A stretch of 55,836 nucleotides of DNA from Gammaproteobacteria bacterium (lineage in GTDB: Bacteria; Pseudomonadota; Gammaproteobacteria; Steroidobacterales; JABDKV01): NCBI GenBank assembly GCA_013003425.1, contig JABDJB010000003.1, forward strand, positions 1-55,836, written 5' to 3'. Each line of letters begins with the position of its first letter. Position 1 is the stretch's first letter. The position numbers and the translations under genes are program-made. Below are positions 19,502 through 36,993 of the stretch, piece after piece. The notes beneath the pieces were generated by a model. It was not told where the DNA came from. It searched no databases and worked only from the letters and a program-made list of their open reading frames with translations.

Positions 19502-20188
19502 CTAGTCATCGTGGGTAATTTTGCTGCGTGCCGCGAGGCTGGCCAGCTCTGCTACCGATCGGGCACCGGTCTTTTCCATTATGCGTGCCCGGTGATGATC
19601 GACGGTACGGTTGCTGATTCCAAGGTCTTTCGCCACCTCCTTGCTGGTGGCGGCTCCGGCAATCATGGCCTTCATGACATCCAGTTCACGTGGCGTCAGG
19701 CGCTGGAATCGGCTGCGGTCTTCCTCTTGCCGTTGACGCGCCTCGCGCGCCCCGGCGTCTGCCGCGAAAGCCTCGTTTATCCTCTGCAGCAGCGCCTCGA
19801 GACGAAACGGCTTTTCCATGAAATCCAGCGCTCCGGCCTTTATCGCCCTGACGGAATTCGGGATATCGCCCTGGCCGGTTATAAAAATGATCGGCAGCGT
19901 GATTCCTCTTTGCGACAGCTCCTGCTGCAACTGCAAGCCATCCATTTCCGGCATGCTCAGATCGAGTAACAGGCAGCCCGGCCGGTCGGGGTCAACTTCA
20001 GCCAGGAATTGGGCGGCCGACTCAAACGTGGCTACCGACAGCTTACGCCTTGTCAATGCGCTGCTCATCGACTGGCGTATTGCCGGGTCATCGTCGACTA
20101 TGAAAACCGTCTGTTGCCGTGCGTCCAGGTTACTGCTCCCTGACCTGCGCCGGCAGGCGAACGCAAAAACAACCCTTGCCACCGGCAC
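19502..20188 (-). CDS. FixJ/NarL-type response regulator
   Basis: Receiver plus LuxR-type HTH. The receiver runs from TVFIVDDDPAIRQSM with the phospho-acceptor in LLLDLSMPEMDG, the conserved Thr/Ser in FITGQGDI and the lysine in MEKPF; the HTH is LTPRELDVMKAMIAG...VAKDLGISNRTVDHHRARIMEK. This is the FixJ/TodT class that works with PAS kinases such as the adjacent one. The first ATG (20188) overlaps the kinase gene by 59 bases and gives an Arg-rich leader lacking in relatives. A CTG at 20128, preceded by GGGAG at a good distance, would start just before the receiver and may be the true start. Confidence 0.88.
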   Translation of the reverse strand: MPVARVVFAFACRRRSGSSNLDARQQTVFIVDDDPAIRQSMSSALTRRKLSVATFESAAQFLAEVDPDRPGCLLLDLSMPEMDGLQLQQELSQRGITLPIIFITGQGDIPNSVRAIKAGALDFMEKPFRLEALLQRINEAFAADAGAREARQRQEEDRSRFQRLTPRELDVMKAMIAGAATSKEVAKDLGISNRTVDHHRARIMEKTGARSVAELASLAARSKITHDD

Positions 20189-21158
20189 AACATTGACCGC
20201 TCACTTCCAGCCGGCCGCCGTGGGCCGCAATTACCCTCCTGCAGATCGCAAACTCCAGTCCTGCCCAGCTCGCATGCCGGTCTTTCAGCGGGCTGAATCG
20301 CTGCGCGTCAGTATCCAGCTGCAGGCCGGCACCGGTGATACTGATACACACTTCACCAGCGCTTTGTTCGGTCGCAATTTCTATTGAACCATGTTCGCTC
20401 TGTGCCAAACTGGCTGCGTTGCCCATCAGGCTGATCAAAGCCTGCACGATCAGGCCTGCATTGACCTCGACCGGTGGTAACCCGGCGGCAAGCCGGGAAC
20501 TGATGTCTTTCGGCCCGCTGTGCGCGACAAACCCCCGGACAGCATCCTGCACCAGCATGTTTGGCCAGGCAGCTACTGTCGCCCCTATGTCGAATACAAA
20601 CAATTGCCGCAGCCGGGTGACAACGTTGCTGGCGCGAAATGCCTGAGCAGTGGCGCGCTGCAGCTCCGCAAGCAACTCTGGGTCGGCGTTTCCCGCATCC
20701 TCCGCTGCCGCCGCAGCGGCTTCGCAGTGCAGCGTTACCGCTGCGAGGGGCTGGTTGAGCTCATGCGCCAGTGAATTATTGATTTCACCAAGCGCCAGGT
20801 TCTTCCATGCACGCGTCAGGTCGCGTTCTGCCGGCACTGACGGGCTATCGCGCAAAACCAGCAACTGCCAGCTCTCGTGGCCCAGCTGAATTTGTCGGGC
20901 AACAACATCGATGGCAAGAAGCTTGCCCCCGTTGCGCACCAGGGCAACACCATCGTCAGCGGAAATCCCCAAACGGCTCGTGTCAGCACCAACCAGCTCT
21001 TCTCCGGCAAACATTGTGCGAGCGCGACGGTTTGAATGCATCACCACACCTGCCGGATTAACAATCAGCGTGGCATCGGGCGCTGACTCGAAAAATTCAG
21101 CCGGCAGCGGGTCAGTCAACCTGCTTGCAGTACCTGCGGTCTCGAGATTTTTTGTCAA
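20130..21158 (-). CDS. PAS-domain sensor histidine kinase with eroded ATP site
   Basis: A 342-residue soluble kinase. The N-terminal PAS domain is EFFESAPDATLIVNPAGVVMHSNRRA. The H-box LAHELNQPLAAVTLHCEAA is intact and typical of FixL-class kinases. In the ATPase domain the N-box keeps NAASLA, but the G1 motif DxGxG is replaced by ITGAG and the G2 motif GLGL by GLEF. Family knowledge says these residues contact ATP, so autophosphorylation may be weak or supplied in trans. The gene overlaps the lone receiver gene upstream (ATGA) and the FixJ-type regulator downstream, so the set is translationally coupled. Confidence 0.85.
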   Translation of the reverse strand: MTKNLETAGTASRLTDPLPAEFFESAPDATLIVNPAGVVMHSNRRARTMFAGEELVGADTSRLGISADDGVALVRNGGKLLAIDVVARQIQLGHESWQLLVLRDSPSVPAERDLTRAWKNLALGEINNSLAHELNQPLAAVTLHCEAAAAAAEDAGNADPELLAELQRATAQAFRASNVVTRLRQLFVFDIGATVAAWPNMLVQDAVRGFVAHSGPKDISSRLAAGLPPVEVNAGLIVQALISLMGNAASLAQSEHGSIEIATEQSAGEVCISITGAGLQLDTDAQRFSPLKDRHASWAGLEFAICRRVIAAHGGRLEVSGQCCAGGKGCFCVRLPAQVREQ

Positions 21159-21535
21159 TTCTGATCGCCGTCGTTATTAACTGCTGTTCCCACCATCTGC
21201 GCGAGAGTTTTTATCTTGAAAGGCTTGTAGATGAAGTTCCGGCCTGCCTCCAGCTCCATCGTTGCCGTCATGGACGGTTGCATATAACCGGACATAAAAA
21301 TGGTTTTCGGCATCGGCTCGATTGCCGCCATCATGTCTATGCCGTTACCGTCGTTCAGACTGACATCAGTGATGACAAGGTCGAATACATCAGACGCCAG
21401 CAGCTTTTTAGCCTGCGTTACACAATTTGCCTCGACTACCTCATAACCTTGTCGCTGCAGCTGGCGTGATACCAGCGACCTTACTTCTTTGTAGTCATCA
21501 ACTATCAGTAACCGGTAGCCATTACTTGTCGACAC
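21155..21535 (-). CDS. Stand-alone receiver-domain response regulator
   Basis: A 126-residue single receiver domain (CheY-like) with no output domain. It has the acidic pair in LLIVDDYKEV, phospho-acceptor aspartate in LVITDVSLNDGNG, FMSGY and the lysine in IYKPF. It lies 11 bp after the propeller hybrid kinase and overlaps the PAS kinase start by 4 bp. A phosphorelay or phosphate-sink role between the two kinases is the obvious hypothesis. Confidence 0.88.
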   Translation of the reverse strand: MSTSNGYRLLIVDDYKEVRSLVSRQLQRQGYEVVEANCVTQAKKLLASDVFDLVITDVSLNDGNGIDMMAAIEPMPKTIFMSGYMQPSMTATMELEAGRNFIYKPFKIKTLAQMVGTAVNNDGDQN

Positions 21536-21546
21536 GTTTAGTTCCG

Positions 21547-24500
21547 TTATGCCAGGCGCATGTAGCGCTGTTCACTTCTCTGGTCCAGTACATCCCTCAC
21601 TACGCGCAACAACACTGATGGCTTGAAGGGCTTTTGCAGAAAGACTGTATCCTGCGAGCTTACTTCAAGCTGGTTGCCAGGATAACCGGAGATAAACAGT
21701 ACTGCTGCCTGCGGATGAATCTTTCTGAGCTGATCGGCCAGCTCTTGCCCGCTGAGCTGTGGCAGCATCATATCGGTGATCAGCAGATCGACTGGCCGGT
21801 TGTGGCGCAACTGCCTCATCAGCGCAGTTGGCTGTGCTGCGGCAGTCACGTGGTAGCCGCGCCCGCGTAGCGAATTGACCAGCATTGATCGAATCCCATC
21901 GTCGTCCTCGCAAACAAGGATACTCTCACCGCCGTCCAGGTCCCCCGTGCATGGCTCCGGGGGCCGGCCCTGGCGGCTTGCGCTCCCCGCGGTAACCGGC
22001 AGCAACACGCGGAACCGCGCTCCCTGCAGTGGCGTACTGTCCACGCGCACGTGACCGCCAGACTGCGTCACAATCCCGTGCACCGATGCGAGACCCAGGC
22101 CGGTACCGTGGCCATGCTGCTTGGTGGTGAAAAACGGGTCGAATACCCGTGCCAGCACGTCCGGATCAATTCCATAGCCGCTGTCGCTAACATCGATTTC
22201 CACGTAATGCCCTGCACTAACGCTGGATGTGGGCCAGGCGAGCTCTGCGCTGACGCTCCTGGTACGAGTAGCGATAGTTATCGTACCGCCCTCGGGCATC
22301 GCATCACGAGCATTAAGAACCAGGTTCATGACGACCTGCTCCAGCTGACTCGGGTCGACCATAATTACCGGTAAGTCTCGCTGCGGCAGCCAGTGCAAGT
22401 GTACGTTCTCCGGCAACAGCTGCTCCAGCATCGGCTGCAGCTGCCCGATAACATCATTGGCATCAACCTGACGCGGCAACAACACCTGCTGACGGCTGAA
22501 CGCCAGCAGCTGACGCGTTAGAGCTGCCGCGCGTTCACTACAGTCGACGATACCGTCGAGGTGCACATCGACTTCGGCGGCATCTGACGGAAGACCGTCC
22601 CTGGCCTGCTCGGCATGGCCAAGCACGGCCGTCAGCACATTGTTGAAATCGTGTGCGATACCGCCAGCCAGACGGCCAATCGATTCCATACGCGAAGACT
22701 CCATCAGGCTGCTCTCCATCAGCGCCCGTTCGCGTTCCGCCTTTTTGCGATTGTCGATTTCCCTCTGCAACTCTTGCGAGTGACGCTCGATGTTGATGAC
22801 ACGGCGGCGGTGCAGACCGAAAAACAACATAACAACAGCCGCGACGGCGCCCACCCTGAACCAGAGCGTCTGGTAATAACGAGCGGCCACGGCGATCGGC
22901 AGCGGAGCGCTGGCGCCTGCCCAGACACCATCTCCGCTGACTGCCGCAACTTCGAATTGATAATTGCCGGGTGGGACCTTGGTAAAAAATGCTGTGCGCT
23001 GGCTGCCTGCATCAATCCACTCATCCTGGTAGCCCGTCAGCCGGTACCTGAAGCGGACCAGCTCGGGTTGCCGCAGCCAGATACCGGTGTAGTCGACGGT
23101 GATCCGCTGAACCCCGGCCGGAACGCGAATCATCGACTGCGGCGCCAGCGCCCGGCCATCGAGCAACACGCGCTCGATGTGAACCACCGGCGGTGTCGCA
23201 TCAGGCAGGTACTGCCGGGGATCCGCGACAACAAGCCCGCGCACCGTCGGAAACCACATGCGGCCTTGCCCGTCGACGGCAGCTGCCGGCCCGTTTGTCT
23301 CCGGGCTGCCAAGCAGGCGCGCGCGAATCTCTGGTTCATCCGGCCCGACCTCCGCCAAGGGGATAATTATTACCCCACTATTCGAATTGACCCATAGACG
23401 GCGGCTGGCGTCCTCGACTATTCCCCCCAGCGACAATTCCGCCAGCCCGTGAGTCTTGCCGATTTGCTGCAATTGCCCGTTGCGAAGACGGACAAGCCCG
23501 TTGCCGTAGGTCGACAGCCACATCGTGCCGCTGGAATCTTCATGCAACGAACGCAACTCGGCACGCAGCGCCGGGTTGCCCTGGCCGACCAGTTCCCAGA
23601 CTACCGCGGCGCCCTGCCCTGACAGGCGACCGAGCGCACCATCGGTAAAAAACCAGATACTGCCATCACTCGCTTCCAGTTGAGGCAACACCTTGCCGGA
23701 AATTCCGGGCGCCGACCGGGTAAGAAAATTTTCATCCACAAACTGGTGGATATTGCCGATTCCACCAAACCAGATCGTCCCGTCTGCAGCTTCCACCAGG
23801 CCGCCGGCGACATCGACGCTGTAGCTGTCGGTAGCAAAGCCCGAAGTTAAGGAACCACGCACACGGAATAGTTCGCCGTCACGATGCAGCCACAGGTAGC
23901 CTGCACGAGTAACGCCCAGCAAGCTGGCACCGGTTGGCACAGCCCACCCGCTGACTTCACTCGGGTCAGAAAAAACTCCATCAGCGCCATGCAGCAACCA
24001 CCCTTCCTGCCCCTGCACCCAGACACCGCCACGCGGGTCGCTGGCAAGGTGCAGCACGCTGCCATGCTGCAGGCCGCGTGGGTCTTCATACTGCGCGAAT
24101 GCCACGCGGTTGATACGTACCAGGCCGAATGAATTAGTGCCCGCCCAGACATTACCGGCGCGATCGCGATAAAGAGCTGTAACACCGCTTTGCAGCGACT
24201 CGTCATCGTGCGGCAGCTCAACTTTGCTGGCACTGACGCGACCCGATTCGACGGTCAAGCGCAGCAAACCGGACGCGATACCGGCCAGCACAGTGCCGTC
24301 TTCATCCAGGGCCGCCGAGTACACCGCCTCATCGAGCGCGTGCGCCGCGATCAGCTTGTCGCCCTCAAGATAAGATATGCCGTGGCGCGAAATTAACCAC
24401 AGCCGGCCAGCCAGGTCACTCACCAGTCCGCGCGCATGCCGCGCAGCGTCGCTGTCATTGACCAGCACGAAACGGTCACCGTCTTTTTTAAGCAGGCCGC

Positions 24501-25113
24501 GCGCAGTGGCAGCCCATAGTGTGCCGTCTGCTGTCACCAGCAGGTCGCCCACCTCGGTCCCGGGCAACCAGGCCGGCTCGGTGACCGGTTCAAACACTTC
24601 GCGGTTGCCCTCGGCGACCAGCCGGGACAGGCCGTGCCCGGCGGCCCAGATATGACCCTCGGCATCCTCGGCGAAATCCTGGATATCCAGCTGCGGCGTG
24701 CCGGACTTGTCAAAAGCTTTAAAGCCAGTCGCATTCCTGCGCACCACACCGCCCTCTACGGTGCCGATCCACAGGTTTCGGTTCGAGTCTTCCAGCAATG
24801 AAACGAGCTTGTTGGTGCCAAGCTCGGGCACATCCTCCAGCACGTAATTTTCAAAGCGCACACCGTCGAAGCGCGCCAGCCCGCCATATGTAGTCAGCCA
24901 CAAATAGCCGTCACTGGCCTCGATTACATCGGTAACGGTTTGCTGCACCAGGCCGTCACGTACGACCCAACGCTGGTGATTGATATGGTCTGATGCCGCC
25001 GGAACGAGGGCAGCTGGAGCGGCCGGAGCGGGCGCAGCCCATAGAACCACAGAGATGGCCAGCCAGCGAAGGTTTTCCATGCGCGCTCGCGTCCTACTTG
25101 CTGGCAATAGCAT
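21547..25113 (-). CDS. Hybrid sensor histidine kinase with two-component propeller and receiver
   Basis: A 1188-residue membrane sensor. After a signal segment (LAISVVLWAAPAPAAPA; a second ATG at 25080 is possible) come about 14 periplasmic propeller repeats of the reg_prop type (DGYLWLTTYGGLARFDG, RNLWIGTVEGGVVRRN and others), a Y_Y_Y domain (YRLTGYQDEWIDAGSQR), one transmembrane helix, the H-box GGIAHDFNNVLTAVLGHAEQ, an intact ATPase domain (SDSGYGIDPDVL, HGHGTGLGLASV) and a C-terminal receiver (CEDDDGIRSM, ITDMMLPQLSG, LQKPF). This family typically senses polysaccharide breakdown products. It heads a four-gene signalling operon. Confidence 0.93.
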   Translation of the reverse strand: MLLPASRTRARMENLRWLAISVVLWAAPAPAAPAALVPAASDHINHQRWVVRDGLVQQTVTDVIEASDGYLWLTTYGGLARFDGVRFENYVLEDVPELGTNKLVSLLEDSNRNLWIGTVEGGVVRRNATGFKAFDKSGTPQLDIQDFAEDAEGHIWAAGHGLSRLVAEGNREVFEPVTEPAWLPGTEVGDLLVTADGTLWAATARGLLKKDGDRFVLVNDSDAARHARGLVSDLAGRLWLISRHGISYLEGDKLIAAHALDEAVYSAALDEDGTVLAGIASGLLRLTVESGRVSASKVELPHDDESLQSGVTALYRDRAGNVWAGTNSFGLVRINRVAFAQYEDPRGLQHGSVLHLASDPRGGVWVQGQEGWLLHGADGVFSDPSEVSGWAVPTGASLLGVTRAGYLWLHRDGELFRVRGSLTSGFATDSYSVDVAGGLVEAADGTIWFGGIGNIHQFVDENFLTRSAPGISGKVLPQLEASDGSIWFFTDGALGRLSGQGAAVVWELVGQGNPALRAELRSLHEDSSGTMWLSTYGNGLVRLRNGQLQQIGKTHGLAELSLGGIVEDASRRLWVNSNSGVIIIPLAEVGPDEPEIRARLLGSPETNGPAAAVDGQGRMWFPTVRGLVVADPRQYLPDATPPVVHIERVLLDGRALAPQSMIRVPAGVQRITVDYTGIWLRQPELVRFRYRLTGYQDEWIDAGSQRTAFFTKVPPGNYQFEVAAVSGDGVWAGASAPLPIAVAARYYQTLWFRVGAVAAVVMLFFGLHRRRVINIERHSQELQREIDNRKKAERERALMESSLMESSRMESIGRLAGGIAHDFNNVLTAVLGHAEQARDGLPSDAAEVDVHLDGIVDCSERAAALTRQLLAFSRQQVLLPRQVDANDVIGQLQPMLEQLLPENVHLHWLPQRDLPVIMVDPSQLEQVVMNLVLNARDAMPEGGTITIATRTRSVSAELAWPTSSVSAGHYVEIDVSDSGYGIDPDVLARVFDPFFTTKQHGHGTGLGLASVHGIVTQSGGHVRVDSTPLQGARFRVLLPVTAGSASRQGRPPEPCTGDLDGGESILVCEDDDGIRSMLVNSLRGRGYHVTAAAQPTALMRQLRHNRPVDLLITDMMLPQLSGQELADQLRKIHPQAAVLFISGYPGNQLEVSSQDTVFLQKPFKPSVLLRVVRDVLDQRSEQRYMRLA

Positions 25114-25211: not shown

Positions 25212-26897
25212 ATGAGCCCCGATCGACCAGCTTTTGGCATGCTCGAGACCTTGCCGGATACGTTTATTGAAGTAGACGCAAAAGGCCTGGTGCAGGCGCA
25301 CATCGGTGGCGGCAGGGGCGATACGGTGTTGCGCCCGGATACGCTGGATGGAAAACAGCTGCGGGACTGCTGGCCCGAAGCCGTAGCCACTGACTTCGTC
25401 AGGCAGGTTCGCAAGACACTCGCCAATCGGCAGCCACACACATTTAACCTGACACTTGACGATCCTGCAATTCGCTATGAAGCCAGGCTGTTCGTGCGCG
25501 GCCGCAACCGCGTGCTGGCTGTCCTGCGCAGACTCGAAAGTAGTGATACTCCGACATTTGTCGATACTTTGACCGGGCTGGCAACCTGCGACCGCTTCCT
25601 GATCGAGCTGGAACGGGTGCTGGAACAGGAACGACTCCGCGAGCGTCACCTGGCTCTGGTCTATGTCGATATCGACCGTTTCTCCCGCATCAACGAGTCG
25701 CTAGGCCGCAAGGCCGGGGACGACGTGCTGCGCGAGATAGCCGCTCGCATGCAAAAGTGCTTTCGCGATTCCGGTCAGCTGATTCAGTTGAGCCCATCAG
25801 ACCAGTCCAACAGGCTGGCGCGCGTGGCGCGGGATGAATTTGTGCTGCTCCTTGCCGGCATTACCTCGCGTGATGAAGCGCGGCAGGTTGCCAGGCGGGT
25901 GCGCGAGTCGTTTGCCGCGCCGATAAACAGCAAGCATTTCAGTCTTGGCGTCGAGCCCCGCATCGGCATCGCACTGTTTCCACACGACGGCGACGATGCG
26001 GAGGCTCTCTTTAACAACGCTCGCGCTGCCGTGCGGCAGGCGCAGGACTATGCTGCAAAAACAGGGATCTTCTACTCCGACGCCCTGCTGGCCCTGGCGC
26101 AGGGGCAGGCCGACTCAGCGCAGGAACTGCGCTGGGCGATGGAACGAGGCCAGTTTGAACTGCACTACCTGCCACGCGTCAGACTCGCCGATCGCGCCGT
26201 GACCGGACTGGAGGCACTACTCCGGTGGCGCCACCCGGTACGCGGCCTGCTTGCTGCCGATCAGGTTGTACCCCTGGCCGAGACCGTCGGGCTGATGAAC
26301 AAGATCTCATACTGGATCTTGCAACAGTGCTGCCAATTCGCCGGCCAGCTCGACACAACGATTGCTACCCGACCGGTGGTATCTACCAACCTGACCGAGG
26401 CGGAACTCGCGCTACCGGATTTGCCCGCCCGGATCGGGGCAACGCTCGACGCCGCAGGGCTGACGGGTGATCGGCTGCAGCTGGAATTCACCGAGGCGGC
26501 CCTGATGCGCCACCAACAGGCCCCGGCAACGCTGCGGCAGCTGAAAGCGATGGGTCTGCACCTTGTCCTGGATAACCTGGGCACGGGGCATGTCTCGCTA
26601 TCTGAACTGTCCACTCTGCCAATCGATGGCGTCAAGATTGATCAGAAAATCACGCAGAAAATTGACACTGATATCACATCGCGCCGACTGTGCGCCGGAA
26701 TCATTGCGCTTGGCCGTGAACTCGGGCTGGCAGTGGTCGCGGAGGGCATCGAAACCGATGCGCAATACGCTTTTCTGCGTGAACACGACTGCGACGCCGG
26801 GCAGGGATTCCTGTTCAGTCAGCCGTTGCCGCCAGATGCCGTAGGCAACTTCCTTGCGACTTGTGCTGTTGACTCGACCGAACCTGCTGTCGGTTAG
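25212..26897 (+). CDS. GGDEF-EAL protein with degenerate catalytic motifs
   Basis: A 561-residue cytoplasmic c-di-GMP-family protein with a short PAS-like N-terminal region. In the GGDEF domain (TLTGLATCDRFLIEL, YVDIDRFSRINESLG) the signature is ARDEF near residue 206, so diguanylate cyclase activity is unlikely. The EAL domain keeps LEALLRWRHP, NLTEAEL, EFTEAAL and AEGIETDAQ, but the metal-binding DDFGTG loop reads DNLGTG, replacing the second Asp. It is therefore probably a weak phosphodiesterase or a c-di-GMP/GTP-binding effector. It is divergent from the hybrid kinase (98-bp gap), so shared regulation is possible. Confidence 0.88.
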   Translation: MSPDRPAFGMLETLPDTFIEVDAKGLVQAHIGGGRGDTVLRPDTLDGKQLRDCWPEAVATDFVRQVRKTLANRQPHTFNLTLDDPAIRYEARLFVRGRNRVLAVLRRLESSDTPTFVDTLTGLATCDRFLIELERVLEQERLRERHLALVYVDIDRFSRINESLGRKAGDDVLREIAARMQKCFRDSGQLIQLSPSDQSNRLARVARDEFVLLLAGITSRDEARQVARRVRESFAAPINSKHFSLGVEPRIGIALFPHDGDDAEALFNNARAAVRQAQDYAAKTGIFYSDALLALAQGQADSAQELRWAMERGQFELHYLPRVRLADRAVTGLEALLRWRHPVRGLLAADQVVPLAETVGLMNKISYWILQQCCQFAGQLDTTIATRPVVSTNLTEAELALPDLPARIGATLDAAGLTGDRLQLEFTEAALMRHQQAPATLRQLKAMGLHLVLDNLGTGHVSLSELSTLPIDGVKIDQKITQKIDTDITSRRLCAGIIALGRELGLAVVAEGIETDAQYAFLREHDCDAGQGFLFSQPLPPDAVGNFLATCAVDSTEPAVG

Positions 26898-27051: not shown

Positions 27052-28824
27052 ATGTACCGCAAACGCTTTATCAGCTCGCTTCCACTGGCCGCCCTGCTGG
27101 CGCTCGGCCTGGCGTCATCGACGCCGGATCACGCAGACCGCAGCAGCGCCATCACCAGCTATATCGTGCAGGGAACGGACTATCACGAACTACTCGCTGC
27201 TGTGGAAGCCGCCGGTGGTGAAGTTACCCATGAGCTGCCGGTCATTGACGCGCTCGGCGTCAGGCTGACTGCCGAAGAAGTCAATGTGCTGAAAGAGTAT
27301 TACCCGGCACTGCGGCTGCATGCCAATGCGGTTGCCGAAGCAGCGGCGCGCAAGCAGAAAGAGCGCGCCCCCGTGGAGGCTACATCAGACCCGGAACCCG
27401 AACCGACTACCGATGAAGTCCCCGGCGACGCCTTCTCGCACTATCCCGCGCTGATCGGCGCCGACCGGCTGCATGCCCAGGGCATCACCGGCAACGGGGT
27501 CGGCGTGGCAGTCATCGATTCAGGCATCTACACCGGCCCGGGGCTGTCCGGCAACACCAATGGCAAATTCCGGATCAAGGCGGCTTACGATGCCCGTACC
27601 GACCGCCTCACGACCGGCTCCTACAACAAGCGCAGGGGCTACTCCGGTATGGAGGAGTTTGATAACGACGACAGCGGGCATGGCTCGCACGTCGCCAGCG
27701 CCGGCTTCAACAGCAAGCTGTCCAATGCCGGCAAGTACAACGGCATTGCACCGGACGTCGACCTGGTTTCGGTGAAAGTGTTCGACGCCGAAGGTCGGGG
27801 TACCTACGCCGATGTGATACGCGGCGTGCAGTGGGCGATCGACAATGCCGCCACCTGGAATATTCGGGTCATCAATATGTCGCTGAGCGCTGCGCCACAG
27901 TCGCATTATTGGGAAGACCCGCTCAACCAGGCAGTGATGGCCGCATGGGATGCCGGCATCGTCGTAGTAGCGTCGGCCGGAAACACCGGCCCTGAAGCGC
28001 AAACCATCGGTGTACCCGGCAATGTGCCCTACGTTATTACCGTCGGCGCAATGACCGACAACGACACGCCGGCTGACCCGACCGATGATCGTCTCGCACG
28101 ATTCTCTTCAGCGGGCCCGACATTCGAAGGCTTCGTCAAGCCGGAAGTGGTGGCGCCCGGAGGCCACATCATGGCGGCGATGGAGGGTGACTCGCAGATC
28201 GCGCTGACCCACCCCGAGTTTTACAACGGTGCATCGTTCTTCTCGATGTCCGGTACTTCGCAGGCAGCAGCCATTGTCAGCGGCATCGCGGCACTGGTTC
28301 TGCAGGCCGAACCGGGACTGACCCCGGACCAGGTCAAGTGCAAGATCATGAGCAGCGCACGGCCCGCGCTCGATGACGACGGCACGCTGGCTTACAGTAT
28401 TTTCCAGCAGGGTGCCGGTCTGGCAAATGCACACGACGCCGTGTACGCCAGCAACTATGACTGCGCCAACAATGGCCTGGATGTTAAAGCCGATCTCGAC
28501 GGCAGCATGCACTTTGGTGGCCCGGCCAACCAGAATGAAGAAGATGACTTTTACCTGATGGACATGGATGGCTACCTGTGGCGCAACGGCGGCGTCTCCG
28601 GCCAGGGCTACCTGTGGTCGAACGGCTACCTTTGGCGCAACGGCTACCTCTGGTCGGCGGGCTACCTGTGGACCAACAGCGTCAACGCCGATGGCTACCT
28701 GTGGCGCAACAGCTTTGCCGAGTCGAGTGGCTACCTGTGGCGCAACGGCTACCTGTGGTCAAACGGCTACCTGTGGCGCAACAGCGAGATCGCGTCGATC
28801 AACAGCTGGGTCGAACAGGAATAG
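27052..28824 (+). CDS. Secreted subtilisin-like protease (S8) with C-terminal GYLW repeats
   Basis: A 590-residue exported serine protease. The signal peptide is followed by an I9-type propeptide (SYIVQGTDYHELLAAVEAAG) and a Pro/Glu linker. The S8 catalytic triad is intact: Asp in VAVIDSGIYTG (about 156), His in DSGHGSHVASAG (about 210) and Ser in SMSGTSQAAAIVSG (about 401), with oxyanion asparagine in VASAGNTGP. The last 85 residues hold nine copies of GYLW, usually followed by RN, SN or similar. The tail is rich in Gly, Tyr, Trp and Asn, probably a beta-repeat for surface retention or substrate binding (inference). Likely controlled by the CRP-type site upstream. Confidence 0.93.
   Translation: MYRKRFISSLPLAALLALGLASSTPDHADRSSAITSYIVQGTDYHELLAAVEAAGGEVTHELPVIDALGVRLTAEEVNVLKEYYPALRLHANAVAEAAARKQKERAPVEATSDPEPEPTTDEVPGDAFSHYPALIGADRLHAQGITGNGVGVAVIDSGIYTGPGLSGNTNGKFRIKAAYDARTDRLTTGSYNKRRGYSGMEEFDNDDSGHGSHVASAGFNSKLSNAGKYNGIAPDVDLVSVKVFDAEGRGTYADVIRGVQWAIDNAATWNIRVINMSLSAAPQSHYWEDPLNQAVMAAWDAGIVVVASAGNTGPEAQTIGVPGNVPYVITVGAMTDNDTPADPTDDRLARFSSAGPTFEGFVKPEVVAPGGHIMAAMEGDSQIALTHPEFYNGASFFSMSGTSQAAAIVSGIAALVLQAEPGLTPDQVKCKIMSSARPALDDDGTLAYSIFQQGAGLANAHDAVYASNYDCANNGLDVKADLDGSMHFGGPANQNEEDDFYLMDMDGYLWRNGGVSGQGYLWSNGYLWRNGYLWSAGYLWTNSVNADGYLWRNSFAESSGYLWRNGYLWSNGYLWRNSEIASINSWVEQE
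28570..28782 (+). repeat. In-frame GGCTACCTGTGG repeat encoding GYLW units
   Basis: Nine near-identical 12-base units (ggctacctgtgg, with occasional ggctacctttgg or ggctacctctgg) spaced 18 bases apart in the two tight blocks, interrupted by longer spacers after units 1, 5 and 6. The nucleotide identity is higher than needed for the protein, suggesting recent amplification by slippage or recombination, so copy number may vary among strains. Confidence 0.85.
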
Positions 28825-28851: not shown

Positions 28852-28884
28852 GCGGGGGCCATACGGCCCCCGCTTCACGTTTTC
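28852..28884 (+). terminator. Terminator after the subtilase gene
   Basis: Perfect 9-bp stem GCGGGGGCC (28852-28860) with GGCCCCCGC (28865-28873) and a four-base ATAC loop, followed by a weak T-rich tail (ttcacgtttt). It separates the protease gene from the propeller diguanylate cyclase, which starts at 28940. Confidence 0.75.
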
Positions 28885-28939: not shown

Positions 28940-31900
28940 ATGCTGAAACCCGGGCATCTGCGCATGTGTGCCAATCGAAATATCTGTCGTCTGTCTCTGG
29001 CGGCAGCCGCAGGGCTGCTGTTTGCGTCGTGGCTGGATGCTGCCCCGGCCGCGGCCGCGACCGATACAACCATGCGCTTTCAGCGTTACTCGATCGACGA
29101 CGGCCTGTCGCAAAGCAATGTTCAGGCGATCGTCCAGGATCACAGCGGCCTGCTGTGGTTTGCGACCGAGAACGGCCTCAACCGTTTCAATGGCTATGAC
29201 TTCAGTGTTTACCGGCGGGATCGCTCTTCTGACACGGCGCTGGAGAACGACTTTATCGCCGATCTCGCTGTCGACGAAAGCGGAAACGTCTGGGTGGCAA
29301 CTGATGGCGGTGGCATTGCACGGTGGAATGCCGTCACCGATGGCTTCGAAGTTTTGCAGCACGTACCGTTTGACCCGACGACGATTGCCGACGACAACAT
29401 ACGCGCCGTACTGGCCGCCCCGGGCGGCGTGGTCTGGGTCGGCACACGTGGCAGCGGCCTGAACCGCATTGACACCGCTACCGGCGCCGTTACTCACTAC
29501 AGTCACGACCCCGGTAATCCCGGTTCGCTGAGCAGCGACGAGATCTATGCGCTGGCTTTGGATGCATCCGGCGCACTGTGGATCGCAACTCAAAATGGCC
29601 TGAACCGGCTCGAGCAACAAGCTGGCGCGGTTACACGCTACCTGCATGATCCCGGCGACCCCGCCAGCCTGGCCGACAGCATCGTCGAATCGCTGTACGT
29701 TGATGCCGCCGGCACGGTGTGGGCCGGTACTTTCAAGGGCGGCCTGAGCCGGCTGGATGCCGAAACCGGAACTTTTGTTCACCACCGTCACAACGCGACC
29801 GACCCGGCAAGCCTTAGTAACGACAGGGTGCAGGTGCTCTACGAAGATACAGGCAGGCGCTTCTGGGTTGGTACCGCCGCCGGCCTCAACCTGATGAACA
29901 GGGAGGCTGGCACCTTCACGCGCTACGGCCATGACCCCGCCGATGACACAAGTCTTAGCGGTGACAACATCATGTCGCTGTTCCAGGATGCCAGCGGCGT
30001 GCTGTGGGTTGGCACAAAACTCAATGGCATCAATGCATGGAATCCGCGCTCCTGGTCTTTCGGCCACCACGCAGCCGACGCCGGACTGAGCAGCCCCCTT
30101 ATATCTGCATTCGCCGAAAACGGCAGGGGCGAGCTGTGGATCGGTACCTTCGGCGGTGGGCTGAATGTGCTCGACCGGTCAACCGGCGCGATGCGCCACA
30201 TTCGTGCCGCGGACTCTGATCTCGGCGACGATCGCATCATGGCGCTGCTGATCGACTCGGATGGCACCGTGTGGGCCGGCACCATGGGTGGCGGGCTGAA
30301 TCGCATAGATACCGCGACCGGCGAGATTCGCACGCTGCTGCATGAACCGGGCAACGGGAACAGCCTGCCCGCTGACGGCATCATGTCGCTGTTTGAGGAC
30401 AGCGCCGGTTACATCTGGGCCGGCACTTTTGGCGGCGGCGCCAGCCGCTTCGACAAGGCGGCGAAAGCCTTTACCAATTTCGCGCCAGAGCCGGGGAACG
30501 ACAGCAGCCTGTCGGCAGCTCGGGCAACAGCCATTACTGAAGACCAGTTCGGCATAGTCTGGGTCGGTACCGACGGCGGCGGGCTCAACGCACTCGACGG
30601 TACATCCGGACGTTGGCAGCATTTCCGGCATGACCCCGACAATCCGGCCAGCCTGAGTGCCAATACGGTCTACTCACTGCATGTCGACAAACAAAACCGT
30701 GTTTGGGTTGGCACCCGCGCCGGACTTGACCGGCTGCAGCGTGACCCCGAGACCGGCGCACCAACCGGTTTCAGCAGCATCACCCAGAATGACGGGTTGG
30801 CCAACGACACAATCTACGGCGTACGGTCTGACCGGGGTGGCAACATCTGGATCAGCACGAACTACGGGCTGGCGCGACTGGATCCTCGCAGTGGTGATAT
30901 CCGAAATTTCCACCGCATCCACGGCCTGCAGGGTGAGGAATTCAACTTCGGTGCCCACCATGCGAACGAACACGGTGAGTTGTTCTTCGGCGGCACCAAT
31001 GGTTTTAACGTCTTCAACCCGGCCGAACTCGAACTTGGATCAAAAGCGCCCGGGGTGATACTGACGTCTTTTTCCAAGCTGAACCAGCCCTTCGATGCTG
31101 CCATGCCGATCGAGAAACTGCCCCGTGTAAGTCTCGACTATGACGAAAATATGGTGACTTTCGAATTTGCCGCCACGGACTTTGTCTCGCCGGCGCAAAA
31201 TCATTATCGCCATATGCTGGAGGGTTTCGATCGGGACTGGGTTAATGCCGGCACGGAACGACGCATCACTTACACCAACCTCGACCCCGGCAACTACGTG
31301 CTGCGGGTAAAAGCGGCCAACAGCGACGGTGTCTGGTCGGAACCAGGTATCGAGATACCGGTGTCGGTGGCGCCTGCGCCTTGGCAGACATGGTGGGCCT
31401 ATCTGCTCTACGCGCTCGTAGTTGCCGGTGCCATCGTCATGTTGGTCCGTGTACAACAGCGCAAACTGGCGCGCGAAGCAGAATACAGCCGGCGCCTCGA
31501 ATCTGAAGTCAATGACCGCACGCAGGAACTGGCAGAGCGTAATGAGCAGCTACAGGTGGCCAACAGTCGTCTGCATGAAGCAAGCCACACGGACGCGCTG
31601 ACCGGACTGCGCAACCGGCGCTACCTGTTCGACGAGATTACCCGGGATATCGATCTGGTTCATCGCCACTTCGACAAGGAGGCGAAGGGGCGGCGCAGCA
31701 CGTTCAATGACGATATTGTGTTTATTGTTGTCGACCTGGACAACTTCAAGCCAGTGAACGATATTCTCGGCCACCAGGCAGGCGACAGGCTGTTGCTCAC
31801 AGTATGCGAAGCACTCGTTAACGCATGTCGCTCATCGGACATTGTTATCCGCTGGGGTGGTGATGAATTCCTGGTTGTTGCCCGCGAAACCAGCCGGGTC

Positions 31901-32251
31901 GAAGCCACGCAGCTGGTCGAGCGGATTCGCGCGAACGTGGAAAACTGCGCTGTAGAACTCGACAATGGCCAGGTCGCCAGAACCACCTGTTCACTGGGTT
32001 TTGCAGCCTATCCGTTCCTGACAGATCAACCCGACCTGCTCGACTGGCAACAGATCCTGTGGGTTGCCGACGTCGCCATGTACCGCGCCAAGGCTGGGCG
32101 TAACGCCTGGTGCGGCATTTACGGCTCGGAGTGGACGGGCACCGCCAAGGAACTACTCGAGCAGCTCAAACTCGACGCGGAGGGCCTGGCTGAAAACCGC
32201 CAGGTCCGGATCGTCGATGCCACGACCCAGGGCGCAGAGCGCATAGCCTGA
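28940..32251 (+). CDS. Diguanylate cyclase with periplasmic two-component propeller
   Basis: A 1103-residue membrane sensor. A signal segment precedes about 14 propeller repeats (SGLLWFATENGLNRFNG, DGTVWAGTMGGGLNRID and others) and a Y_Y_Y domain (HMLEGFDRDWVNAGTERR). Next come one transmembrane helix (TWWAYLLYALVVAGAIVML), a coiled coil and a GGDEF domain. The catalytic motif RWGGDEF is intact, and RSSD five residues upstream is a canonical inhibitory I-site, so it should make c-di-GMP with product feedback. Its sensor half matches that of the hybrid kinase at 21547, implying similar ligands but a different output. ATG 28964 is a possible later start. Confidence 0.93.
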   Translation: MLKPGHLRMCANRNICRLSLAAAAGLLFASWLDAAPAAAATDTTMRFQRYSIDDGLSQSNVQAIVQDHSGLLWFATENGLNRFNGYDFSVYRRDRSSDTALENDFIADLAVDESGNVWVATDGGGIARWNAVTDGFEVLQHVPFDPTTIADDNIRAVLAAPGGVVWVGTRGSGLNRIDTATGAVTHYSHDPGNPGSLSSDEIYALALDASGALWIATQNGLNRLEQQAGAVTRYLHDPGDPASLADSIVESLYVDAAGTVWAGTFKGGLSRLDAETGTFVHHRHNATDPASLSNDRVQVLYEDTGRRFWVGTAAGLNLMNREAGTFTRYGHDPADDTSLSGDNIMSLFQDASGVLWVGTKLNGINAWNPRSWSFGHHAADAGLSSPLISAFAENGRGELWIGTFGGGLNVLDRSTGAMRHIRAADSDLGDDRIMALLIDSDGTVWAGTMGGGLNRIDTATGEIRTLLHEPGNGNSLPADGIMSLFEDSAGYIWAGTFGGGASRFDKAAKAFTNFAPEPGNDSSLSAARATAITEDQFGIVWVGTDGGGLNALDGTSGRWQHFRHDPDNPASLSANTVYSLHVDKQNRVWVGTRAGLDRLQRDPETGAPTGFSSITQNDGLANDTIYGVRSDRGGNIWISTNYGLARLDPRSGDIRNFHRIHGLQGEEFNFGAHHANEHGELFFGGTNGFNVFNPAELELGSKAPGVILTSFSKLNQPFDAAMPIEKLPRVSLDYDENMVTFEFAATDFVSPAQNHYRHMLEGFDRDWVNAGTERRITYTNLDPGNYVLRVKAANSDGVWSEPGIEIPVSVAPAPWQTWWAYLLYALVVAGAIVMLVRVQQRKLAREAEYSRRLESEVNDRTQELAERNEQLQVANSRLHEASHTDALTGLRNRRYLFDEITRDIDLVHRHFDKEAKGRRSTFNDDIVFIVVDLDNFKPVNDILGHQAGDRLLLTVCEALVNACRSSDIVIRWGGDEFLVVARETSRVEATQLVERIRANVENCAVELDNGQVARTTCSLGFAAYPFLTDQPDLLDWQQILWVADVAMYRAKAGRNAWCGIYGSEWTGTAKELLEQLKLDAEGLAENRQVRIVDATTQGAERIA

Positions 32252-32374
32252 CCGGCTATCAGCTGACAGTGCCGCCGCCCGCGCCGTGCCGGCAGGTGGT
32301 CTCCGTACATTTACCTATCGGCCCTCTTCCCTACTGACGCTATTCTCTAGTTTAATACGTTGCGGACGGCCAGA

Positions 32375-33757
32375 ATGGCAACGCCGCCGGGGCACAGGGG
32401 GACAGTTCTGAAGCAGCGCAGAGATATCCGGATCCGCCGCGGTCTGGACGTTCCAATTGCCGGCACCCCAAAACAAGAGATTCTGGATGCGCCGGCAACC
32501 ACAACCGTGGCTCTGCTCGGTCGTGATTACCCCGGACTGCGCCCTGAGTTGCTGGTCAGACCCGGCGACAGCGTCACGGCCGGGCAGCCGGTTGCGCGTG
32601 ACCGGCGTCACCCCGATTTTGTCCTGACGTCACCCGGGAGCGGCAGCATCGAGGCCATCCAGCGCGGTGCACGCCGGCGCCTGACCTCGATCGTCATACG
32701 ATTGGCCAGTGGTGACCCGGTTACTTTTCCAGCGATTGATCCAGCGGCAGGTGACCGTGCATTGCTGCAGCAACGTCTGCTGGAATCAGGATTGTGGTCA
32801 GCTTTCCGCACCAGGCCGTTTTCTCGCATTCCGCAGCCTGGTGCTGAACCGGCAGCAATTTTTGTAACAGCTATCGACACAAACCCGCTGGCCGCAGACC
32901 CTGCCATCGTTCTTGACGGGCAGCACGATGCGCTGCGCGATGGATTGACGACGCTGGCACAACTTACCGACGGCAGCGTTTATTTCTGCCGCGGGCCCGA
33001 ATTGAAACTGGAGCTGCCCGCGCTGCCGCAGCTCGTCGATGCCGTGTTTCGTGGTCCGCATCCAGCCGGCCTGCCCGGCACCCACATTCACTTTCTCGAA
33101 CCTGCGGGGCCAGCCAGATCCGTGTGGCATGTCGGTTACCAGGATGTCGTGGCGATGGGCAAACTGGTACGTCACGGCGAGTTGTCGCTCGAACGGGTTA
33201 TCGCAATCGGTGGTCCGTCCGTCGCGCAGCCGCGCCTGCTGCGCACCCGCATCGGCGCAAGTACGGACGACCTCGTCGCCGGCGAACTCGAGCCTGGCCC
33301 GTGTCGTGTTGTCTCCGGGCCATTGCTGTCGGGACACCGGGCCGCAGCTGACGAGCGTTTCCTGGGTCGTTATCACCAGCAACTGATCGTGCTGCCGGAT
33401 GGCGGCGAGCGTGAGTTCCTTGGCTGGATGGCACCGGGGCTGAAAAAATACTCCTCTATCGGCGCATTTGCCTCCAGCCTGTTACCGCGACGCAACTTCC
33501 GCCTGACTACGTCACTCAACGGCAGCGCCCGCGCTATCGTGCCGATCGGCAACTTCGAAAAAGTCATGCCGCTGGACGTGCTGCCGGTGCCGTTGCTCAA
33601 GGCCCTGCTGGTACGCGACGCTGACAGTGCCCGCGAGCTCGGCGCGCTGGAACTCGACGAAGAAGACCTCGCGCTGTGCTCTTTTGTCTGCTGCAGCAAA
33701 CACAACTACGGCCCGGCGCTGCGCCACGTGCTGGACAAACTGGAGCATGACGGCTGA
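32375..33757 (+). CDS. nqrA: Na+-translocating NADH:quinone reductase subunit A
   Basis: First gene of a complete Na+-NQR operon. This peripheral cytoplasmic subunit is implicated in quinone binding. It has about 460 residues, near the family length. The usual N terminus ([18 protein letters not shown]) is preceded here by some 18 extra residues if ATG 32375 is used; TTG 32360 is the only longer option. Other family blocks are [28 protein letters not shown] and the C-terminal [20 protein letters not shown]. The stop overlaps the nqrB start by one base. Confidence 0.94.
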
Positions 33758-34968
33758 TGCGTTTTCTGCGCCGACAAATTGACCGCATCGAACCCTGGTT
33801 TCAGCCCGGCGGGCGGCTGTCGTCGTACAGCGCGCTGTATGAAATGGTAGACACGCTGTTCTACACCCCGGCAGACACCACCAGGCTCGCTCCACACGCC
33901 CGTGACGCAGTCGATCTCAAGCGGGTAATGATTATCGTGTTTATCGCGGTAATGCCCTGCGCCGTCTTCGGTATGTGGAACACCGGTTTTCACGCCAATG
34001 CCGCTATTGCGGAGCTGGGCCTGTCCGGCGCTGCCGGCTGGCGCGGCTGGCTGCTGGACCTGTTGGGTGTCGGCTATGACCCGGGCAATGCTTTCGCCTG
34101 TTTCATGCACGGGCTGCTGTATTTCCTGCCGATATACATCGTCACTATGGCAGTCGGCGGTTTCTGGGAGGTGCTTTTCGCACTGGTACGTGGCCACGAG
34201 GTCAATGAAGGCTTTTTCGTCACATCGATCCTGTATGTGCTGATACTGCCGGCGACTACACCACTGTGGCAGGTAGCTCTCGGCATCACTTTCGGTGTGG
34301 TCATTGCCAAAGAGCTGTTCGGCGGTACCGGCAAGAACTTCATGAACCCGGCGCTGGCAGGGCGCGCCTTTCTGTACTTTGCCTATCCGATACAGATGTC
34401 CGGCGATGCCGTGTGGGTGCCGGTCGACGGCTATACCGGCGCCACGGCACTGGCAGTTGCTGCCGAGAATGGCGTCGACGCCGTAATCAGCAGCGGCATC
34501 AGCTGGATGGATGCTTTCATCGGGCCGATCCAGGGCTCACTCGGTGAAACTTCGGCGCTGGCCTGCGTAATCGGCGGGCTGATTGTCGTGTACACCGGTG
34601 TGGCCTCATGGCGGATTATTGCCGCAGTCATGCTGGGCATGATCACCACCACGCTCCTTTTCAATGTCATCGGCTCTGACACCAACCCGATGTATGCACT
34701 GCCATGGCACTGGCATTTCGTGCTGGGCGGCTTTGCCTTCGGCATGATGTTCATGGCCACCGACCCGGTCTCGGCCTGCCAGACCAATATGGGGCGCTGG
34801 ATATTCGGTTTCCTGATCGGCTTTATGACGATAGTCATCCGGGTTGCCAACGTGGCATTTCCCGAGGGCATCATGCTGGCAATTCTCTTTGCCAATATTT
34901 TTGCACCGTTGATCGACTACTTCGTTGTCCGGGCCAACGTGCGCCGGCGGGAGCGCCGCAATGCCTGA
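33757..34968 (+). CDS. nqrB: Na+-NQR subunit B
   Basis: Integral membrane subunit of 403 residues with about ten transmembrane helices. It carries a covalently bound FMN and is thought to form much of the Na+ pathway. The FMN attachment threonine is in [10 protein letters not shown], matching the family [ST]GAT motif. N-terminal [20 protein letters not shown] and [21 protein letters not shown] (read in part) are typical. Overlaps nqrA by one base and nqrC by eight, so expression is tightly coupled. Confidence 0.96.
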
Positions 34969-35737
34969 TTCCGGCAACAGCATTCGCCAGACGCTGCTGG
35001 TTGCGCTGAGCGTCAGCCTGGTCTGCTCGATTATCGTCGCAACGGCGGCGGTGCTGCTGGAACCTCGCCGTATCCAGAACGAACAGCGCGCAATTCGCTA
35101 CGACATCCTCGATGTTGCCGGCAAGCTCGATTCTGCTGCGGACATCGATGAAGCATTCGCCGCAATCGAAACCCGGCTGGTACAGCTCGAGACCGGCGAC
35201 TACGCTGACGGGGATCCACAACAATTCGATGCGCGCGATGCGGCGCGCGATCCTGAACTGGGTATCGCGGTGCCGCCGGACCTCGATGTTGCCCAGATCG
35301 ACCGCCGTGCACGGTTTGGCAAGGTCTACCTGGTGCGCGATGGCGCCACGCTGGAGCGCATTGTGCTGCCGATTCATGGCTACGGCCTGTGGTCGACGAT
35401 GTACGGCTTTGTTGCCGTTACGCCAGACGCGCAACGCATCCTTGCAATCAAGTTCTATGAGCACGCGGAAACGCCCGGACTGGGTGACCAGATCGACAAC
35501 CCGAAGTGGCTCGCCTCGTGGACCGATACGCTGATCTATGACGACAGCGGTGCAATTGCCGTTGAAGTGATCAAGGGCGCCGTGCGGCCGAACGATTCGC
35601 GTGCGGATTACCGGATTGACGGGCTGAGTGGCGCCACGCTGACCGGAAACGGCGTGAGCAACACCGTACGTTACTGGCTCGGCCAGCACGGCTACGGACC
35701 CTACCTGCAGCGGCTGAAAAGCGGGAATGAAACATGA
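34961..35737 (+). CDS. nqrC: Na+-NQR subunit C
   Basis: A 258-residue subunit with one N-terminal transmembrane helix ([20 protein letters not shown]) and a periplasmic FMN-binding domain. The covalent FMN site is the threonine of [12 protein letters not shown]. Family blocks [14 protein letters not shown] and [16 protein letters not shown] are present. The start ATG 34961 overlaps the end of nqrB; the frame extends slightly further upstream inside nqrB and is rejected. FMN attachment requires an ApbE flavin transferase, which is not in this window. Confidence 0.95.
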
Positions 35738-36384
35738 GCAATCGTTCTGCCAAAACGATCATCGAGCCGATCGTCGATAACAACCCGATTACTTTGCAGA
35801 TACTCGGCGTTTGCTCGGCGCTGGCAGTCACGACCTCCCTGCTGCCGGCGCTGATCATGTGTGTTGCCGTGATCGCCGTAGCAGCCATTGCCAACACGGC
35901 GATCAGCGCGATACGCACGCATGTGCCAACAAATATCCGCATCATCGTGCAAATGACGATCATTGCGTCGCTGGTAATCGTGGTCGACCAGATACTAAAA
36001 GCTTATGCCTACGAAACCAGCAAGCAGCTGTCGGTCTTTGTTGGTCTGATCATCACCAACTGCATTATCCTCGGCCGCGCCGAGAGTTTTGCCATGCACA
36101 ACCCGGTAGTGCCGAGCCTGCTCGACGGCATCGGCAACGGCATTGGCTACAGCCTGGTGCTGATAATCGTCGCCAGCACGCGTGAGCTGTTCGGCGCCGG
36201 CACGCTGCTCGGCTTTACCGTTCTGCCCGCTGTCAGCGACGGCGGCTGGTATGTCCCGAACGGCATGATGCTGTTACCACCGAGTGCGTTCTTCGTCATT
36301 GGCCTGTTGATCTGGGCGGTGCGCAGCTGGAAGCGCAAACAGGTGGAACAGCCGCAGTTCCGCATCCACGAGGAGCGTGTCTAG
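35734..36384 (+). CDS. nqrD: Na+-NQR subunit D
   Basis: A 216-residue membrane subunit with six transmembrane helices. Together with NqrE it forms the inverted-repeat core that holds a membrane-embedded iron centre. Recognisable blocks are [18 protein letters not shown], containing a conserved cysteine, and [15 protein letters not shown], with the second conserved cysteine. Overlaps nqrC by four bases (ATGA) and shares one base with nqrE. Confidence 0.95.
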
Positions 36385-36992
36385 TGGGCGCTTACCTGGA
36401 ACTGTTTGTCCAGGCGGCGTTCGTCGAGAACCTGGCGCTTTCGTTTTTCCTCGGCATGTGCACCTTCCTGGCGGTATCAAAACGCGTCGACACCGCAATC
36501 GGCCTGGGTATCGCAGTTATTGTGGTGCAGATCATCACCGTGCCGGTTAACCATCTGCTGTATGTGCATGTGCTGCGTGATGGAGCGCTGCACTGGGCGG
36601 GGCTGGGCGAACTGGACCTGAGCTTTCTTGGCCTGGTCACCTATATCGGCGTCATCGCCGCCATGGTGCAGATCCTCGAAATGATACTGGACCGGTATTT
36701 TCCCGCACTGTTCCAGGCGCTCGGTATATTCCTGCCGCTCATTACAGTCAATTGCGCCATTCTTGGCGGCACGCTGTTTATGGTTGAACGCAACTACACG
36801 CTCGGCGAGAGCGTCGTTTACGGCATTGGCAGCGGCGCCGGCTGGGCGCTTGCGGTGATTGCGCTGGCCGGCATCCGCGAAAAAATGCGTTACAGCGATG
36901 TACCGGCAGGCCTGCAGGGTCTCGGTATCACTTTCATAATCGTCGGGTTGATGTCGCTTGGATTTATGAGCTTTTCGGGAGTGCAGTTCTGA
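36384..36992 (+). CDS. nqrE: Na+-NQR subunit E
   Basis: A 202-residue, six-helix membrane subunit, partner of NqrD. Conserved cysteines occur in [14 protein letters not shown] and [11 protein letters not shown], as expected for ligands of the intramembrane iron centre. It starts with GTG at 36384, whose first base is the last base of the nqrD stop (TAGTG), an arrangement that favours coupled translation. The stop is one base before the nqrF ATG. Confidence 0.95.
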
Positions 36993-36993
36993 T

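Follow-up and report, generated by a model that had tools for sequence, protein, structure and literature searches.

A tryptophan-hexapeptide tail on predicted exported subtilases and its gene linkage to Reg_prop/Y_Y_Y sensors

Introduction

Choline-binding repeats are short Gly/Trp repeats, like those of the tail described here. In the LapG/LapD system, periplasmic proteolysis is controlled by c-di-GMP and the protease, LapG, is a cysteine protease. Sensors with Reg_prop and Y_Y_Y domains (PF07494, PF07495) include the c-di-GMP proteins GdpX2 and GdpX3 of Xanthomonas oryzae, and the sections consulted of the paper on these proteins describe such domains, when coupled to c-di-GMP enzymes, as being of unknown function (PMC6637768). 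HtsH1-3 of Lysobacter are also Reg_prop/Y_Y_Y sensors, according to the consulted part of the corresponding paper (PMC8463545).

Here we analyze a subtilase gene encoded between c-di-GMP genes in a gammaproteobacterium (assembly GCA_013003425.1, contig JABDJB010000003.1). The whole stretch of DNA analyzed, 55,836 nucleotides, is referred to as the window. An initial annotation had pointed out the repeats at the end of the protein. What is new here is that the repeat tail is an undescribed, clade-defining feature, and that it is accompanied by a conserved Reg_prop/c-di-GMP gene neighborhood.

Results

Features of the subtilase locus. Coordinates are positions in the window.
Feature	Coordinates	Strand	Basis or remark
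Reg_prop/Y_Y_Y hybrid histidine kinase, divergent from the cluster	21547..25113	-	Pfam Reg_prop, Y_Y_Y, HisKA, HATPase_c, Response_reg
GGDEF-EAL protein, next gene upstream of the subtilase	25212..26897	+	Pfam; GGDEF-EAL neighbors in relatives too
Tail-subtilase ORF	27052..28824	+	590 aa, Peptidase_S8, predicted exported
Propeptide-like domain, subtilisin-type intramolecular chaperone	27151..27342 (aa ~34-97)	+	AlphaFold, Foldseek
Clade-specific linker CANxGLDVxADLxGxxHFGGxANxxxxxxFYLMDMD, 5' of the tail	28462..28569	+	Alignments
Nine hexapeptide units GYLW[RST][NA], spacers after units 1, 5 and 6	28570..28782	+	
Conserved C-terminal segment SEIASINSWVEQE, consensus S-[IV]-N-x-W-V-x-Q-E	28783..28821	+	Alignment
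Perfect GC-rich hairpin in the protease-sensor intergenic region	28852..28873	+	RNA fold z-score -3.97
Reg_prop/Y_Y_Y periplasmic beta-propeller sensor, GGDEF output, next gene downstream	28940..32251	+	Pfam; found beside relatives' subtilases

As judged from its sequence, the protein is a Peptidase_S8 subtilase with a full catalytic triad, and protease activity is predicted. The Pfam match (PF00082) covered residues 147-447 with an E-value of 4.7e-57 and 193.9 bits, against a cut-off of 21.8, and residues D156, H210 and S403, together with the oxyanion residue N311, were all located within the expected motifs. Direct reading of the N-terminus, MYRKRFISSLPLAALLALGLA, revealed a resemblance to a Sec signal peptide without lipobox. 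In the full-length AlphaFold model (38 sequences), both the propeptide and the S8 domain were well predicted. The propeptide-like region (residues 35-91) displayed an E-H-E-E-H-E order of elements with pLDDT values of 89-97, and its top Foldseek matches were pro-forms, such as ProN-Tk-SP. Membership of a defence system was also considered and rejected, as the only PADLOC models that the subtilase matched, by way of its S8 domain, were those for generic subtilases and IetS.

The initial annotation had counted nine GYLW units, most of them followed by a polar pair, and both the count and the position were borne out. The GYLW motifs start at residues 507, 519, 525, 531, 537, 548, 560, 566 and 572 (nucleotides 28570..28776), and the following pairs are RN (five times), SN (twice), TN and SA (once each). 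The array is broken up by the spacers GGVSGQ (6 residues), SVNAD (5) and SFAESS (6). It had been described as the end of the protease; it does lie near the C-terminus, but segment SEIASINSWVEQE comes after it. GYLW appeared no more than once in any of 20,000 shuffles of the protein sequence, and Tandem Repeats Finder detected the array at periods of 18 and 36. A profile search with the preceding linker matched tail-subtilases only. In the alignment, C-terminal segments of the SEIASINSWVEQE type were kept across Gammaproteobacteria, Acidobacteriota and Chloroflexi, and a WVxQE-type end was present in about 50 of the 97 distinct tail-subtilases. The tail itself ends in WVEQE and does not carry the hydrophobic helix that, together with a basic end, is typical of sorting tags; NCBIfam models of C-terminal sorting tags (PEP-CTERM, GlyGly-CTERM etc.) gave no match beyond the S8 region.

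The tail matched no domain described in Pfam, NCBIfam or the PDB, where a profile search returned nothing significant, and we found no relevant paper on GYLW repeats, subtilase repeats or subtilases associated with Reg_prop. The original remark that no assigned function was known for the tail thus held. The WXXGXW repeat (PF12779), which also consists of short Gly/Trp repeats, reached 15.8 bits against the tail, below its cut-off of 18, and the Pfam scans gave no match to choline-binding repeats. In the full-length model, residues 505-590 displayed no structure (pLDDT 23-30). When the tail of a relative with regular repeats (L072) was modeled alone (28 sequences), one three-residue strand was obtained per hexapeptide, with low confidence (pLDDT 52, pTM 0.31). 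A strand-turn repeat would agree with this model, but the model does not prove one. Foldseek searches with it returned only E-values above 1, with proteins from the designed Cake and Bagel series among the top rows, and these matches were discarded because of the low model confidence.

The codons of the units are nearly identical in the window, as first noted: GGC and TAC are used in 9/9 units and CTG in 7/9, and codon identity between units was 0.89, compared to 0.48 expected from the codon usage of the gene. The recent amplification deduced from this uniformity did not stand up to comparison with relatives. The closest orthologues (G004 and G002, 72-79% identical) both have nine units, with spacers in matching places, and another orthologue (G003) has ten, encoded with mixed codons for the matching residues (GGT/GGC, TAT/TAC, TTG/CTC/CTG/CTT). 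Recent amplification was rejected as the origin of the array on the basis of this common unit number and spacing and of the synonymous sites, which are near random in most related arrays. One 18-bp sequence is common to four window units, also at places where the residues of G004 differ, and this fits local copying within an old array. Thus, the uniform codons indicate at most a recent local homogenization in the window.

Related arrays were found beyond this genome. A DNA pattern search of genome contigs with the tail only returned at least 116 stretches. Among the matches listed, in-frame arrays (Gammaproteobacteria, Acidobacteriota and Anaerolineae) were almost all on S8 proteins, the non-S8 exceptions being contig-edge fragments and short or antisense frames. 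In total, 92 arrays of the form G-x-h-W-[S/T/N/A]-[D/N/Q/E] were gathered from Gammaproteobacteria, Acidobacteriota and Chloroflexi, and essentially all are carried by S8 subtilases. When genomes were drawn evenly across the class, the pattern was present in 2/114, both belonging to the order of the window, and the reversed pattern in 0/114. At the order level, tail-subtilases were present in 12 of the 59 genomes sampled. In the phylogenetic tree, for which tailed sequences had partly been found through the tail itself, a branch with an SH-aLRT of 99 separated the tail-bearing S8 proteins (96) from those without a tail (24). The tail-bearing clade comprises two subclades, largely split by the C-terminal end, either of the WVxQE type or of an acidic, D-rich type. 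No strong S8 relative lacking the tail was present among the sequences recovered by whole-protein similarity. On the basis of these comparisons, the tail is an old, selected and clade-defining part of exported subtilases that spans several phyla.

Some arrays are long. Two S8 proteins of Anaerolineae (L051 and L055) carry about 25 GGFWSD/GRFWSD units and 18 GGFWGD units, respectively, and one of Acidobacteria bacterium Mor1 (L087) carries about 30 GALWSD units. One MAG contains two GYLWNN tails at contig ends (L078 56-1879 and L111). As repeat arrays break assemblies, the numbers of tail-subtilases counted in MAGs are minimum values.

Selection on the units was assayed on the 92 arrays, each with at least six units. 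The Trp at position 4 was part of the search definition; outside it, the consensus is mostly G, Y/F, L/V/I, S/T/A/N and D/N. At positions 2, 3, 5 and 6, amino-acid identity was 0.75-0.86 within a protein and 0.26-0.47 between proteins. Codon identity, given the same residue, was 0.56 compared to 0.46 expected, and the median pS and pN of the arrays were 0.60 and 0.11. The eleven identical GYLWTD units of L114 (pS 0.65, pN 0) and the ten GFLWSD units of L090 (pS 0.76, pN 0) illustrate this behavior. The six-residue register persists in degenerate units. High residue identity within proteins combined with near-random synonymous sites indicates that selection, and not recent DNA copying, keeps the units alike. 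This is an unusual evolutionary case, with units remaining alike at the protein level despite drift of their DNA, and it points to homotypic packing or to a repeat-specific partner: like-on-like stacking, or a partner reading the unit repeatedly, would each explain the uniformity.

In the window, the subtilase gene lies within a cluster of signaling genes. A LuxR-type response regulator, a histidine kinase and a stand-alone receiver (19502-21535) adjoin the Reg_prop hybrid kinase, making signaling genes denser there, and the genes of a Na+-translocating NADH:quinone reductase (nqr, 32360-38226) directly follow the cluster on the 3' side. The hairpin that separates the subtilase and sensor genes is a possible terminator or attenuator; its T tract is weak, and a terminator scan did not detect it.

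The association with sensors was then quantified in other genomes. In eight genomes that had been selected solely for S8 homology, 8 of the 23 Y_Y_Y sensors were located within 6 kb of a tail-subtilase, compared to 0.33 expected (Poisson P 2.7e-9), and in five of these genomes 8/9 were; a same-strand signaling neighbor was observed for 44/95 tail-bearing S8 genes and 3/25 tailless ones (Fisher P 0.001), the tailless controls also being a different S8 clade, and these neighbor counts were based on stop-to-stop ORFs and single-seed HMMs in related, non-independent genomes. Alteromonas aestuariivivens carries a subtilase, a Reg_prop-GGDEF gene and a GGDEF-EAL gene together, Alteromonas sp. a30 carries a similar set twice, and an Acidobacteriota genome has three tail-subtilases with a Reg_prop kinase. 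In Thalassomonas sp. RHCl1 (contig 19; L204, L205), five tandem tail-subtilases with different repeats (GSIWNE, GYLWAD, GYVWAD, GS[IV]W[NY]E and GYLW[AV]D) directly precede a response-regulator/GGDEF/sigma-54 gene, a Reg_prop-GGDEF gene, a Reg_prop-kinase gene and a GGDEF-EAL gene. The outputs of the neighboring sensors vary (GGDEF, HisKA+REC, HisKA_2, PAS-sigma54) while Reg_prop and Y_Y_Y are constant, which suggests a tie on the sensing side. About half of all tail-subtilase loci have no signaling neighbor. Genes observed next to tail-subtilases that lack sensors included transport, metabolic and other genes, with no common theme. Among the sensor-free cases are the expansions in two genomes of one genus (G012 and G025; L026-L034, L164-L175), with about ten tail-subtilases per genome, two repeat types (GYTWSQ and GYLWSD/AYLWSD) and no Reg_prop sensor nearby.

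The four-residue motif G-x-h-W forms the core of the tail unit and also that of the propeller blades in the two Reg_prop sensors of the window, each of which contains 11 copies, compared to a mean of 0.7 after shuffling. Homology of the tail to the propeller was rejected (hhalign probability 0.2 out of 100, E-value 0.27), as was homology of the linker, whose profile matched no sensor. The likeness is thus a resemblance of short elements, and its value is limited to guiding tests of binding.

Discussion

We favor, with a probability of roughly 0.4, a reading in which the tail acts as an extracytoplasmic multivalent docking or assembly module that would place the protease next to a partner, likely the adjacent sensor. 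This reading builds on the S8 fold and its catalytic residues, the export signal, the clade-wide tail, the pattern of selection and the gene linkage with sensors; the strand-turn units, the physical contact and the direction of signaling are what we infer from them. Each unit would probably form a short strand, G-x-h-W-x, in extended conformation, with a [D/N]-G turn after it, and the Reg_prop/Y_Y_Y sensor encoded just downstream would be the most likely partner in the window. The presence, binding or cutting of the protease might then act on the sensor and be passed inward as a change in c-di-GMP. Against such docking speak the many loci that have no signaling neighbor, including the G012 and G025 expansions, the low confidence of the tail models and the missing homology between tail and propeller; moreover, the linked genes may simply be co-regulated.

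The main rival, which we consider a serious but less than even prospect, is that the repeated Trp strands form a stacked beta-solenoid or cross-beta module through which the protease would be retained at the cell surface, on glycans or in oligomers, the link with sensors being secondary. The initial annotation had suggested a related possibility, a beta-helix ladder that could serve surface attachment, carbohydrate stacking or self-assembly. Amino acids homogenized within and not between proteins, over DNA that is not homogenized, would fit like-on-like stacking, as would the register maintained in degenerate units, the one strand per unit of the weak tail model and the tail-subtilases without sensors nearby. 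However, the tail models are of low confidence, the tail matches no known carbohydrate-binding or solenoid family, and the sensor linkage is left unexplained.

Plain regulatory linkage appears rather unlikely. Here the Reg_prop sensor would detect a substrate or product and control how a scavenging protease is expressed or how active it is, the tail having an unrelated job. Hybrid two-component sensors control polysaccharide loci in a comparable fashion, the ligands of periplasmic Reg_prop/Y_Y_Y sensors are either glycans or unknown, the outputs vary freely, and the hairpin may separate the two transcripts. Yet a GGDEF output does not act directly on transcription, and it is the tail clade, rather than the other S8 proteins of the same genomes, that shows the association, with the reservation that these controls are also another S8 clade. 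We find less credible still a new kind of extracytoplasmic signaling pair, in which the Trp-hexapeptide tail would be a ligand or strand partner of the adjacent propeller, its G-x-h-W units imitating blade strands, with the state of the protease setting c-di-GMP or other outputs and the different tails of expanded paralogues serving as separate channels.

Copies alike within a protein and unlike between paralogues, such as the five of Thalassomonas, could also be read as those of a multi-copy peptide precursor, whose units would be cut out by the subtilase itself or by another protease and read as a signal by the adjacent sensor; this is very improbable, as degenerate units and conserved spacers stay in register, the conserved WVxQE end follows the array and no processing site was seen. 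A neutral low-complexity tail produced by slippage would account for the uniform window codons, but it is contradicted by the substitution pattern, in which pS greatly exceeds pN for most arrays, and by retention of the tail across the whole clade and several phyla, and can be dismissed.

This protease clade provides a concrete candidate partner for Reg_prop/Y_Y_Y sensors coupled to c-di-GMP enzymes. The consulted sections of the papers on GdpX2/GdpX3 (PMC6637768) and HtsH1-3 (PMC8463545) describe a periplasmic part of the kind predicted for the gene downstream of the subtilase; these sections mention no linked tail-subtilase, and the protease itself is no such sensor. With pro-subtilisins (PF00082, e.g. 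ProN-Tk-SP, 3afg), the window protease shares the propeptide, the catalytic fold and residues and the export signal, and it differs from them by its C-terminal linker, hexapeptide array and WVxQE end, which have no PDB or Pfam match. Finally, an exported protease encoded beside c-di-GMP proteins may be seen as analogous to LapG/LapD, with the difference that the protease of the window is a subtilase with a Trp tail in place of the LapG cysteine protease.
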